Shown: positions 1,089-60,240 of the stretch, one piece after another | Numbering within the stretch: position 1 is the first letter of the stretch | How the letters are laid out: every line of letters starts with the position of its first letter | Origin: Arenicola marina | Taxonomy: Eukaryota > Annelida > Polychaeta > Arenicolidae | Reading direction: 5' to 3' | NCBI GenBank assembly: GCA_964019135.1 | Contig: OZ025248.1 | Span: forward strand, 33,597,670-33,661,669 | Length of the DNA stretch: 64,000 nucleotides | Made by a program: the position numbers and the translations under genes | Notes under the pieces: generated by a model | Database searches by the model: none | Told to the model about the DNA's origin: nothing | The model's input: the letters and a program-made list of their open reading frames with translations, nothing else

Positions 1089-52663
<51,575 letters not shown>

Positions 52664-54278: not shown

Positions 54279-54284
54279 TTTATT
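54279..54284 (-). terminator. AATAAA signal of the dsRBD-RNase H gene
   Basis: The minus strand reads ACAATAAAGACC 160 bases after the stop codon, the expected position for the polyadenylation signal. Confidence 0.7.
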
Positions 54285-54443: not shown

Positions 54444-54884
54444 TTATCTGTCCGTATCATTGTTCTTATTGTCCTTTGATATTGCCACATCAACTCTGTA
54501 CTTAAAGTCGCCCAGCTCTCCGTCGTGGCGTAGCGAGTGGCTAGAGTCCAGCACTTGGTGCACCGGCCTCGGCGGGCCATCATTCTCCGTGGTAACTTCA
54601 ACGCCGCATTTGTCCAGTACTGGGCCGCTGTCCGTCCTCCATTTTCGGTGCGTACGCGGCTTGGACTCCGCAGAGTGGCGCCCCTGTAGAGACGCGGACA
54701 TCGTCAATGGCGCGAAAAACTCGAGCTTCTTCGGTTTTTTAGAGTCGCGCCTGGCATTCGGCACCAGTCGGAGGAATCGGTCGACCTCCATCCGCGAGAG
54801 GTAGTCGGCCGCCAGGTTGTCGTGCCGAGAGATGTGGGAGGCGTGCACAGAGATGTTGTAGCGCATGCACGTCCAACATAACAC
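54444..54884 (-). CDS. dsRBD-RNase H gene, terminal exon
   Basis: Acceptor GTCACAG. It starts VLCWTCMRYNISVHASHISR and completes RNase H with the last catalytic aspartate in DNLAADYLSR. It continues with about 115 charged residues of no recognised fold and stops at 54444. Confidence 0.8.
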   Translation of the reverse strand: MLCWTCMRYNISVHASHISRHDNLAADYLSRMEVDRFLRLVPNARRDSKKPKKLEFFAPLTMSASLQGRHSAESKPRTHRKWRTDSGPVLDKCGVEVTTENDGPPRPVHQVLDSSHSLRHDGELGDFKYRVDVAISKDNKNNDTDR

Positions 54885-57466
54885 CTGTGACGAGGAATAC
54901 AGAGAAAAGGGAGCCATTTTATTGTTATTTATACACAACTTTAACAACTTCGGTAACCAAGTTTTATGTATCATTTGAGCAGTTCTCCTAATACTGGACT
55001 ATTAGAAGGAATAAAGAAAGCTACGTCAATTGTTTTTGACGTGGCGGTGAGTTTGCGCCTTACATTTTACAAATGTGCAGTGAGACTGGACCGGCTTACA
55101 GAGGACTGTGGGTTAGATTGACGCAGGCTAAGAGAATATATCCAGTTAGATACCTAAGATTACAATTTACACCCGAACCCACCCTCACTCCACCACCCAC
55201 CTGGAACATCTTGGTCATACAGGCATGCCTGCGGGAGATGCCGCCCCGGACTATCATGGCCGTGCTGCTGCTGTCGGTATAGAAGGCCACCCGCTTGTCC
55301 ACAAACTTCTTCTTCCACGTGAACACGGCCGCCAGGAGGCCGTAGAACTCGAGAAAGGAGGAGTTGTGGAGGTAGGGCTCCACGCCGGCGCCCCAGGGCG
55401 CACACAGCCAGCGCACCTCGGCCGTCGCACTCTCCGGCCCCGTTTTGGCCACCAGGTAAGCGCCGTAACCCTTGTTGGAGGCGTCCACGTAGACCTCGTA
55501 ATCCGCTGGCTGTCCGGGGGCCTCGGTCTGGGGGCGGCGGCGGGGCAGTGAGATGTAAGACCACGGCTTGAGCACGCCGTCTCGGGATACCATGCCGTTA
55601 GCCTGCAGCAGGGCAAGATTGGTGAGGAGAAAGTGCAGGGATGGTGGGGAGAGGGTCAAAAGGCCGCGGTAGAGTATTATAATGCTAAAACGTGTTGGGT
55701 TTCCGTTAGCATCCAGTCACTATTCAGACACATTCGCAAAGCAACATATTTGGCGATCTTAAGTGACAACTTCATACAACGTTCACATATTGACATTACT
55801 GCAGCTGGATTCGATGAGTAGTACCAGAACGCCACAAACGCAGCCTCCGCAGCCTAATATAAAATCTGTAACCCTACAATGTTTCAGCTATATAACCAAG
55901 ATGACTGTGGCAATGACTACACATGTGCATAAATTATTATTATTATATGCATATTTTAGCTCAATAGGCCACAGTGGATGACTAAACTAAGACTGGTTCC
56001 ACAGTATTAGCACCCACCTTGAACTTGACAAAGGCCAAGACGGCGGCATTCTGTTCCGCCGCTTCCTGCGTCAAGCCCTCCCCTTGAACACAGAGGGCGA
56101 CTGGCCACGAAATTGTCAGCCGAGACGTCCACCGTACATGGCCGCCCAGGGCCTGGAGGCTGCTGTTGAAGTTCAGCGTCGTCTTCTGGAAGTCCTCCAC
56201 CCGGATGACACAATCACTATGGCACTCCAGGAGAGACTTCTTGAAGTCTATCAAGCGCCCGTCATGGGTCAACACGCCGCAGAACTGGCAATCACATAAT
56301 ACAAATGTTTTACATAGGAAAATATGAATGCATGTACTGAAAAATCTAAAAGAATAGAGTAATCATTATTCTAATTTCTAATAGAATGTATGAGTGGGAC
56401 GTTAATGGCAAGAGACGTTCTACTTAAAATACTTAAAAGTATAGCCTTTGTGAAGATTATGTGACAAAGAATTTACAGAACTTCCATACAAGTTCTTTGG
56501 TAGCGATATACAGTTGTACTTGTAAATCAAACAAATGAAACAAAGAAATCTGTGTTGCAATCTTCAGCCACAGATTATCACATTACTGCTCTGGCTTTAA
56601 CATGGCGACAGTTTGGGAAGTCAAACAGCCGGATACATAAGCCATGCACTGACACATTTCAATCCAACTTTTTCAGATGACTCACATGAAGCATTTGACA
56701 AGCTGAGAGAAACGCAAACTCCTCGGCCATTTCTGATCTTGCGCCGATTCCACAGACTTGAAATCTGCGTGGCCAAATCACAGTGAGTTGAAACTTCCAT
56801 GTGGTGCCATTCAAGTTCCTTTTGCATTCACAATGTGGTTCATAGCGAGGATCCACTGCTATGACTGGAGCCAAGAAGCGATTGAGCAGATCTTTCGCTT
56901 TTGGAAATGACTTTCGAAGTAACTCAACTGCAAACAAAAATGTTTCACTGTCAGTGCAACTGTAAAAAATTAGTTTAACCTCAGTCAAGAGTCAAATGTA
57001 ATTTATTTAAACCAAGTACACAAGCAAAGAAATAGCTAATGTATATAAATCCATGAAAGTAAAGAAAAACACTTGGCTAGGGAAACTGAACTATTTGGTC
57101 ACCTTACCTTCTGTTTGCTATAAACTATATAACTGAAATTAAATTCTCATCTACCATAATGTTCTCATGGTTCAAGACTGACCAAAATACTCGCACAAGT
57201 TGCCAAAATTGTTCTGCTAGTGATGTAATCGGCAGATGAGAAATTATTTACCACACAGGAAAGATAAGGTCACTCATCCAAACTTTAAATTTTGAAGCTT
57301 TACTTTTCAGCATTTAATGGTACTTGATTCATAAGGTACATACTTCCATAAACTATTGCCATACCTTAAAATGCTACATACGACATGGACCTCTTCCTAA
57401 ATTCGACACGGACTTCTGCTTATAAAATCGACATGGACTTTTGCTTATAAAATCGACATGCGACAT
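54444..57466 (-). CDS. Host gene fusing two DHX30-like dsRNA-binding domains to a retroelement-type RNase H (five exons, ~478 aa)
   Basis: Exons 57382-57466, 56686-56927, 56018-56284, 55201-55602 and 54444-54884 have GT/AG borders and consistent phases. Residues about 35-125 (FPKAKDLLNRFL, LTVIWPRRFQVCGIG, AEEFAFLSACQML) resemble the first dsRBD of the mitochondrial helicase DHX30. Residues about 140-215 (LTISWPVALCVQGEG, AAEQNAAVLAFVKF) form a second. RNase H fills about 230-365: VYVDASNKG, FLEFYGLLA, FYTDSSSTA, SHISRHDNLAADYLSR, so the aspartate-glutamate-aspartate-aspartate set (about D238, E283, D308, D359) is present. No helicase or reverse transcriptase domain is seen. The C-terminus is a charged tail. 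An AATAAA follows 160 bases after the stop. Inference: a host RNA or RNA:DNA-hybrid nuclease with a domain taken from a DIRS- or Ty3-like source. Confidence 0.75.
55201..55602 (-). CDS. dsRBD-RNase H gene, exon with most of RNase H
   Basis: Acceptor CTGCTGCAG, donor GTGGGT, 134 codons in phase 0. It joins the end of dsRBD 2 directly to a proline/arginine linker and RNase H motifs VYVDASNKGYGAYL, SSFLEFYGLLAAVFTW and RVAFYTDSSSTAMIV. The fusion is therefore within one exon, not only a splice prediction. GC-rich, codon-biased sequence indicates selection. Confidence 0.85.
56018..56284 (-). CDS. dsRBD-RNase H gene, exon with dsRBD 2
   Basis: Acceptor GATTGCCAG, donor GTGGGT, 89 codons, phase 0 at both ends. 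The second dsRBD-like unit holds TSRLTISWPVALCVQGEG and EAAEQNAAVLAFVKFK. Its C-terminal end continues in the next exon as ANGMVSRDGVLK, as DHX30 has LKSLGLVDRNNEPL. Confidence 0.8.
56686..56927 (-). CDS. dsRBD-RNase H gene, exon with dsRBD 1
   Basis: Between acceptor TTTGCAG and donor GTGAGT. It encodes helix 1 (FPKAKDLLNRFLAPVI), the beta strands (CECKRNLNG, WKFQLTVIWP, RRFQVCGIG) and helix 2 (MAEEFAFLSACQMLH). The next exon continues FCGVLTHDGRLIDF, matching DHX30 after its first dsRBD (ACQLFKGWGLLG). Confidence 0.8.
57382..57466 (-). CDS. Putative first exon of the dsRBD-RNase H gene
   Basis: The ATG lies in a good context (accgccATGT). The exon encodes a basic, serine-rich 28-residue start (MSHVDFISKSPCRFYK...), with no acidic run, that could be a mitochondrial presequence. 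Its GTATGT donor is phase 1 as the next exon requires. The exon contains an imperfect internal repeat (gacttttgcttataaaatcg), so this first exon is less certain than the rest. A GC-rich segment at 57480-57610 could be the promoter. Confidence 0.45.
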
Positions 57467-57774: not shown

Positions 57775-57780
57775 TTTATT
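57775..57780 (-). terminator. AATAAA signal of the unidentified minus-strand gene
   Basis: The minus strand reads GTAAATAAAGTC about 85 bases after the stop at 57865. Confidence 0.65.
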
Positions 57781-57864
57781 TACACAAGCTGATACCCAGC
57801 TACTATACATCAGGAGCTACATCGTTCCCGCGGCGTACGCATCCTTTATCACTCGGTCACCCTA

Positions 57865-58112
57865 TCACTCGGCCTGCTGTGGGCGGGCAATTCGTGGGCC
57901 CAGGAGATGGGTCCCGGCATCAAGGAGGGATTCGGCGTCACGAGCCCCCGCGACGTACTCCTCCCAGAGCCGGCGAATGCGCTCGTCGCTGCGTGCGGCT
58001 CCTCTGTGGCGATGACGCACCTGCTCCTCCCTTCGAACCATGGCCACCATCACGTCCACCATCTGTGCCTCCTGGCGCAACAGTTGGCACAGCAGAAAGA
58101 TCAAGAGGGAAC
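57865..58112 (-). CDS. Terminal exon of an unidentified gene
   Basis: An 81-codon terminal exon from a good acceptor (TTTATTTCCTTGCCAG) to a stop, followed by AATAAA. The product is a leucine-rich start (SLLIFLLCQLLRQEAQ) then a charged, probably helical tail (RREEQVRHRHRGAARSDERI, RRLWEEYVAGARDAESLL). I do not recognise it. PIF/Harbinger transposons carry a partner Myb-like protein with a similar helical C-terminus, but the evidence is thin. Upstream exons were not found. Confidence 0.5.
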
Positions 58113-58324
58113 CTGGCAAGGAAATAAAACAATATCACAATGATTAGAATGAGAATGGAGCATGATTATTTTTACATAAAAACGTTTTTTCTTGATTCCT
58201 TTCCTGTACCAACAAATTTGGCAATTTATTTGTACATAAAAAATAACATTAAATAAATTGGTGATATACTGCAAAAATGTAAAAGTAAGAAGTGGATTAC
58301 TAACATTACGGCCATGGGTGTTGA

Positions 58325-58437
58325 GTCTAAGATGCCAGCCCTCGACATCGTTGTTTGTCCATCACACATCCATCGCACTGCATGCCTTCTTGGCGGGGTT
58401 GTACAGGATCATTACATGCTAGGCATAAGTTTTCCAT
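58325..58437 (-). pseudogene. Zinc-finger fragment, MULE/FLYWCH-associated type
   Basis: A 36-codon frame starting ATG: NLCLACNDPVQPRQEGMQCD then GCVMDKQRC. The C-x2-C, CDGC and xQRC pattern resembles the zinc finger preceding FLYWCH/MULE regions (QCDGC..WQHR.C). The end is atypical and a stop follows soon, so it is probably a relic or a short exon. Confidence 0.3.
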
Positions 58438-58683
58438 TGTGGTTATCAAGTTGTAGAATGAAGGTACAAGACACCAACATGGCTTTTATAACCGTTTGTT
58501 GACAATGTGTCAATGATATATCAAATATGTGTTAAACTGACAGATTATGATGACCTCTGACTTTAATGAGCTGCCTCCTGACACCGCTTTTGATGTTTGT
58601 TAACTAAACCATCAAATACTGATCTGACTGTTAGGGTGAAGGTGTGAATCAATGTTCAGGAAATCACACATTTTGTGAGTCGT

Positions 58684-58799: not shown

Positions 58800-58950
58800 C
58801 ATACATAAAAAATAACAAAATCTCTATCTGAATCCCATACTGTTATATATGCATGTTTGGTCGAAGATTGATTAGACATATACCTAAACTATGTCAATGA
58901 GACTTGCTGATTTTAAAATCGTTCTATCATTTATTTACAAGAAGAATTTA

Positions 58951-59352
58951 AAGTTGCATATCAAGTTCTTTCCCGCCAAAACTAAGACCAGACGAAATTT
59001 ATATCAAAATTTGCAGAAAACTCGATTGTTTCATTCCATATATTCAGAAACCTGATAAACATCGCCGTTTCGCCTGTGGTGTGGCAAACGTGTATATCCT
59101 GGGACACCACAGAACTCTGTCGCGGCACTGCTACTTATATAAAAGCATCGCGAAGCACACAAACTGATGATGTTTACCACTAAAATGAAAACTTGTGGTA
59201 AATTGATATCACTGGCAAGGCTAAGAGACACTATATGGCAGTCTGGCATGGGTGGAGTATAGCCAAAATAAATCTTGAATGTATCAAGGACTGATTCTTA
59301 CTTGTATTTTGACCTCTTTAGTTTTGGCGGGAAACAACTCGACATGCAACTT
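58951..59352. mobile_element. Mariner-like MITE, 402 bp
   Basis: Terminal inverted repeats of about 35 bp: AAGTTGCATATCAAGTTCTT tcccgccaaaactaa at the left, AAGTTGCATGTCGAGTTGTT tcccgccaaaactaa inverted at the right. TA flanks both ends, as for Tc1/mariner. No transposase remains. Confidence 0.85.
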
Positions 59353-59633
59353 TAATATTTAAAACAAGACTTTGTCGTGGCTATAATACGGATACTGAGT
59401 AGTTGTGACGTTAAAATGTTATAAAAGTTAATGGTATGCACGGTTTACATCATCCCACCAAAGATACATATTATGGCAAGCTGATATGGCATTTATTTTG
59501 AATATTGATCATTAGGTAGCACCTATCCATATTACGCATAGGCTCTGACTTTGATGTTTAGTAGCCTTTTAATTGCACCAACCAGCAATCGCAAATCAGA
59601 AAGACAAGTTTCTTGTAACCTTGTAACAATAGT

Positions 59634-59639
59634 TTTATT
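59634..59639 (-). terminator. Possible AATAAA signal
   Basis: The minus strand reads GCAATAAAACTATTG. The stretch above it (59645-59760) is C-rich on the plus strand and could be a minus-strand 3' exon; no frame is recognised. Confidence 0.35.
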
Positions 59640-59839
59640 GCTGGTGGTAATCAACAACAACAGGCAGCGTTCACCCCTCCACCTGTCCACTGGACACCGC
59701 CATCAATGGGCACCACCCCTCACAACATGAACCCCCAACCCCCTACTACCCCCCTTGCGCGGTTCACGTGGCCTGCGGTCGACCCATCCTGCGGTCGAGG
59801 AGGGCGTACCCCAACATGGCTACCCCTCTGACGGGCACT

Positions 59840-60240
59840 ATATGTTTGGAGTTGTTCTCGGTCAAATAACAAACCCTGTCATTACCAGACCTGTCTCTAA
59901 CGCATCACGGGGTGCCGTTAGCGCCAGGCAGCATTTGCTGTCTTTGCGGTGTAGCAGCACATAATGGCGTGGGCTGGTGCTGATCGAATAAATGTGCCCA
60001 GAAAAAGCCCTGACATTGCAAGTTAGGACAATAAATCAAAGTATTTTCATTCTGCCAGGTCAGTAAATTGCATAAGGATTCTAGAAAGATCCATATTTTG
60101 TCGGCTAGTTAAAAACTGTGTGCCCTATACGCGAAAATATGCGCTGCAACATCGCAAAGACAGCAAATGCTGCCTGGCTCTAACGGCACGCCGTGATGCG
60201 TTGGAGACAGGCCTGGTAAACCCTGTCACTGACCTATTAT
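59840..60240. mobile_element. Inverted pair of PIF/Harbinger-like transposase scraps
   Basis: A plus-strand frame (59840-59965) reads TRPVSNASRGAVSARQHLLS LRC. A minus-strand frame (60138-60240) reads TRPVSNASRRAVRARQHLLS LRCCSAYF. The pattern resembles RPTxRNxALxxxQQLLxLRF of Harbinger transposase N-termini. The two copies face each other across about 170 bp. Only short pieces remain, so the assignment is weak. Confidence 0.35.

Follow-up and report, generated by a model that had tools for sequence, protein, structure and literature searches.

Is the minus-strand gene of Arenicola marina described here, in which two dsRNA-binding domains (dsRBDs) are followed by an RNase H domain, a gene of the host, and where does its RNase H come from? 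The preliminary description of the window (the whole stretch of 64,000 nucleotides that was analysed) had taken it as a dsRNA-binding protein fused to an intact retroelement-type RNase H. Its observations hold on re-analysis, and its interpretation is supported in part. We read the locus as a host gene carrying a tandem pair of DHX30-type dsRBD folds and an RNase H which most probably came from a retroelement (DIRS/Ty3 style) and is now split by an intron, and we assign this reading a probability of about 0.6.

The gene is composed of five proposed exons, which give a conceptual protein of 478 amino acids followed by a stop. Translation of the exons as they stand in the sequence gave the same borders, phases and open frame as first described: exons 2, 3, 4 and 5 are entered in phases 1, 0, 0 and 0, all introns are of the normal GT-AG type and the frame is open throughout. 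The gene has its own AATAAA, read on its strand at 54284-54279. The features are the following.

57382..57466, minus strand: exon 1, proposed first coding exon, uncertain; 28 codons plus one base, net charge +4
56686..56927, minus strand: exon 2, dsRBD1 of the DHX30 type; match to 2db2, Dicer_dimer below cut-off
56018..56284, minus strand: exon 3, tail of dsRBD1 and then dsRBD2; homology to dsRBD1, AF2 model, Foldseek, GC3
55201..55602, minus strand: exon 4, end of dsRBD2 and most of the RNase H (D238, E283, D308); open frame, GC3, Pfam
54444..54884, minus strand: exon 5, C-terminal part of the RNase H (H349, N355, D359), tail and stop; open frame, GC3, motif
54279..54284, minus strand: AATAAA poly(A) signal, 3' of the gene; sequence

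Exon 4 contains both the last part of dsRBD2 and the beginning of the RNase H, and the fusion lies inside a single exon, as had been claimed. A wrong joining of two neighbouring genes was rejected on account of this shared exon, the tail of dsRBD2 in exon 4 also belonging to the internal repeat alignment. A pseudogene was likewise rejected, there being no stops and the acidic residues being intact. Residues 381-478, a C-terminal tail of 98 residues, contain no recognised domain and have no Pfam match.

The weak link of the gene model is exon 1, which is doubtful. Seventy-nine of its 85 bases are inside a 25-bp tandem repeat at 57374-57460 (TRF). It has an ATG in the context ACCGCCATGT, a GTATGT donor and the right phase, and is one of four candidate first exons in the 7 kb upstream, in a scan restricted to exons that begin with ATG, have a strict donor and keep the phase. 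When the two candidates starting below 59500 were compared, its start context was the better one.

The high-quality codon structure attributed to the gene stands for exons 3 to 5 and fails for exon 2. GC3 of exons 2, 3, 4 and 5 is 0.41, 0.78, 0.86 and 0.71, respectively. The controls were stretches drawn at random from the region 50-64 kb of the window, excluding the gene, each taken in the best of its three frames; the GC3 minus GC12 of exon 3 (0.29), exon 4 (0.32) and exon 5 (0.22) was reached by 0 of 3735, 0 of 3728 and 0 of 3661 of them. Exon 2 is without codon bias, with a value of -0.06 which all 3836 controls equalled or exceeded. Among the top 45 window ORFs listed by codon signal, exons of the gene rank 1st, 2nd and 5th, ranks 3 and 4 being antisense mirrors of coding exons, while the SRPK (SRSF protein kinase) exons of the window rank 6th, 10th and 12th. 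The codon bias of exons 3-5 is at least as strong as that of these SRPK exons.

Comparison of the 478-residue protein with solved structures (phmmer) gave 2db2 at E=3.7e-5 over residues 28-125. This structure is the dsRBD of KIAA0890, which is DHX30. Pfam on dsRBD1 returned Dicer_dimer alone, below cut-off (0.016-0.051), and for dsRBD2 by itself there was neither a Pfam match nor a better result with 2db2 than 0.59, in fourth place. The relationship of dsRBD2 to dsRBD1 is clearer: blastp between the two gives 4e-5 with the bare exons and 7e-7 with the tails, and their local score of 66 was reached by none of 5000 shuffles (mean 23.7, maximum 58). A two-row profile of the pair has 2db2 as its sole match at 3e-5; with the tails added 2db2 rises to E=4.8e-6, the only significant solved-structure match, the next having E=1.

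Modelling of exon 3 by AF2, from an alignment in which exon 2 was the only other row, gave a beta-beta-beta-alpha arrangement with a mean pLDDT of 58.1 (67-73 over residues 41-89, below 50 over residues 1-34), the first helix of dsRBD2 being modelled with low confidence. Foldseek with this model gave no match at E <= 0.001 among 763 (best 0.015); of the 50 that were listed, the top 25 are all proteins with a dsRBD, 2db2 standing at rank 21. The structure prediction proposed earlier as a check is, for dsRBD2, partly confident, and its best listed neighbours are of the expected kind. The two domains also share their gene structure, a phase-0 intron being located at the same place after each (ACQMLH^FCGVLTHDG and AFVKFK^ANGMVSRDG), followed by the common tail G-[VM]-[LV]-[TS]-x-D-G-x-L. 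Such matching placement would be expected after duplication of an exon, or if the pair was inherited from an ancestor that already had the two in tandem. The alpha-beta-beta-beta-alpha dsRBD fold and a sequence kinship of the DHX30 type are present in the gene, and the two DHX30-like dsRBDs of the preliminary description are supported by the profile and by their mutual match.

Their proposed activity is another matter. Textbook dsRBDs have the basic contact motif KKxAK at the start of helix 2, and a patch of this type is absent from both domains, which read GARSEMAEE (dsRBD1) and GLTQEAAEQ (dsRBD2) there. For this reason binding of dsRNA by the pair is doubtful, and their description as dsRNA binders is not supported. 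At the place aligned to dsRBD1, helix 2 of DHX30 reads GSKKIDAER. The dsRBDs more probably serve for docking or dimerisation than for gripping dsRNA in the standard way.

The RNase H fragment, obtained by joining exons 4 and 5, matches three RNase H-type Pfam families, RT_RNaseH (0.021), RVT_3 (0.033) and RT_RNaseH_2 (0.093), all below cut-off (15.4, 14.6 and 13.2 bits against 24.8, 21.6 and 29.8). RVT_3 is a member of the RNase H clan. Jointly the three matches cover residues 3-134 of the 147 of the fragment; with the whole protein as query they weaken to 0.24, 0.21 and 0.16, respectively. None of nine shuffled controls matched an RNase H family, and three of the nine had some chance match at 0.13-0.26, so that any one E-value means little by itself, and more weight attaches to three families agreeing. 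No solved structure was found by sequence for this half of the protein, and an AF2 model of exon 4 alone (pLDDT 33) was not used.

All four acidic residues of an RNase H are present and in order, as had been noted: D238, E283, D308 and D359 (positions 8, 53, 78 and 129 of the fragment). H349 and N355 are found in an H-x5-N-x2-A-D setting. H-x5-N-x2-A-D-x-[LM]-S-[RK] is an RNase H pattern; chosen after the sequence had been seen, there is one instance of it in the window, all six frames counted, against an expected 0.0002, and none in 100 block-shuffled windows. The shorter AD-x-[LM]-SR has a single occurrence in the six frames, inside the gene. The domain is split by the GT-AG intron between exons 4 and 5. 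Judged from its residues the RNase H is probably catalytically able, and the suggested label of retroelement type rests on the sub-threshold Pfam matches and the motif.

Three known systems can be compared with this gene. DHX30 has a dsRBD of the same subtype and is the only one to give a significant solved-structure match. It continues past its dsRBDs into a DEAH helicase, whereas here an RNase H follows. Cellular RNase H1 pairs a hybrid-binding domain with RNase H, and is similar in having an N-terminal nucleic-acid module and a C-terminal RNase H with D, E, D and D; it differs in that the gene has two dsRBDs and an RNase H matching RT-linked families, and no match to the hybrid-binding domain was present among the Pfam results for the 478 residues. 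The motif order of the RNase H and its AD-x-LSR ending are as in DIRS1-like and Ty3/Gypsy RNase H. The pol order of DIRS1-like elements is given as reverse transcriptase, RNase H and methyltransferase, and their RT/RH as close to that of Ty3/Gypsy (PMC3266345). In distinction to these elements, the gene has no recognised reverse transcriptase, methyltransferase or recombinase, and its RNase H is divided by an intron.

The type of the RNase H raises the question of whether the locus is still part of a mobile element. No YxDD-type motif of the form [FYVL][YVAMFI][MVILA]DD[ILVFM] was found in the six frames of the 64 kb, a scan which an intron-split reverse transcriptase would escape; within the reach of this motif the earlier statement that there is no reverse transcriptase is borne out. 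Directly upstream of the RNase H, where a DIRS/Ty3 element would have its reverse transcriptase, the same exon carries dsRBD. Beyond 47 kb there are 56 neighbouring ORFs of at least 62 amino acids, and in the 20 of them scanned against Pfam no reverse transcriptase or recombinase family was found; four had a match, the best at 0.012 to a zinc ribbon, none over cut-off. A second copy of the gene is absent from the window, a weak similarity at 33925-33656 (E 0.45) being taken as chance. Within 50-62 kb no terminal-repeat pair, direct or inverted, flanks the gene: the direct repeats of at least 25 bases belong to two minisatellites, and each of the six inverted-repeat pairs is confined to one side of the gene.

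These data make it highly improbable that we are dealing with a pol fragment of a retroelement which itself carries dsRBDs. The RT-linked type of the RNase H would fit such an origin, but the gene has four introns, and there is neither a YxDD-type motif of the scanned form nor a second copy in the window, nor a flanking repeat pair in 50-62 kb. A recent lineage-specific chimera, in which an RNase H fragment landed behind DHX30-like dsRBD exons and is read through with no selected function, would account equally for an RNase H of this type, and also for the 98-residue tail without a recognised domain and for a first exon made mostly of minisatellite. We regard it as unlikely, given that every exon is open with the catalytic residues intact, that a GT-AG intron splits the RNase H, that exons 3-5 have a strong GC3 bias, and that there is no reverse transcriptase or recombinase family in the 20 of 56 ORFs scanned, no YxDD-type motif of the scanned form and no flanking repeat pair in 50-62 kb.

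The RNase H fold could also have been retained as a nucleic-acid-binding or structural module, the protein serving as a scaffold that binds RNA, perhaps within a mitochondrial RNP. DHX30 has a mitochondrial role, and its kinship to the gene points this way, as do the basic proposed N-terminus (net +4, itself uncertain) and R352, which stands in place of the G of H-x-x-G usual in RNase H. However, all four acidic residues are kept together with H349 and N355, residues that a domain with a structural role alone could do without. We hold a scaffold role to be quite improbable.

With a domesticated host gene as the preferred reading, the gene would be transcribed and spliced as modelled, and its RNase H would be active and cut the RNA strand of RNA:DNA hybrids, and possibly dsRNA as well. 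The dsRBD pair would then act as an anchoring or dimerising module which takes the RNase H to structured RNA or to an RNP. The preliminary description goes further and proposes an independently built analogue of RNase H1. In our version of this proposal a captured RNase H is steered by the dsRBD pair to RNA:DNA hybrids or structured RNA, possibly with a mitochondrial or anti-retroelement function and under lineage-wide selection; this we put forward only tentatively. Among the parts of retroelements that hosts have domesticated, gag, integrase and envelope make up the majority. If the proposal is true, a stand-alone retroelement RNase H with its active site complete and joined to an RNA-binding-type module would mean that evolution had reached an RNase H1-like enzyme by a second route, and the protein would be a candidate nuclease acting on R-loops, on hybrids in mitochondria or on intermediates of retroelements.

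No dsRBD-RNase H gene was present among the literature matches listed (titles and abstract openings), and the layout may nevertheless have been described before. In IMG/VR six stretches matched the pattern of the RNase H part with none confirmed, and none matched the dsRBD part; in the GTDB genomes 53 matched for exon 4 and 37 for the dsRBD part, again with none confirmed. Neither collection is a fair place for an animal gene, and the empty searches are as expected for this reason. The single IMG/VR match to the RNase H motif was dropped, as it is out of frame inside an unrelated-looking ORF of 449 amino acids, and PF17917 had no match in that record nor in 14 control genomes. NCBIfam and PHROGs, searched with the RNase H fragment as well as the two dsRBD exons, gave nothing useful; we regard one PHROG at 0.27 and AcrIF5 at 0.51 over residues 221-282 as chance matches. 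Scanning the window for Rfam families and tRNAs led nowhere.

Some minor observations concern the surroundings of the gene. Fold-back inverted repeats are located on both sides of it, at 50910-51814 and 58948-60219, with arms of 233 nt (50910-51142 and 51422-51654, 75%) and of 82 nt (59882-59963 and 60138-60219, 91%); they look like small inverted-repeat elements. The minus strand has at 57775-58440 a short stretch whose beginning, MENLCLACNDPVQ, is rich in cysteine; a later ORF at 58134-57868, which has no Pfam match, is followed by an AATAAA. The stretch could be the remains of a transposon or another gene next to this one. The SRPK exons are located in the left part of the window (4140-9620, minus strand). 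A 52-residue piece of two joined exons matches the SRPK2 structure 2x7g at 6e-30. Its similarity to yeast Sky1 (1.5e-10) falls far short of that to SRPK1/2 (6e-30 at best), which together with the minisatellites points to an animal genome. The region 4140-4310 matches Pkinase at 1.2e-9, the other four of the five ORFs given being without a Pfam match. Minisatellites are very many between 1353 and 48925, TRF rows covering 26989 of the 64000 bases of the window, and include a 45-bp unit repeated 109 times (18812-23716), with long open frames on both strands.
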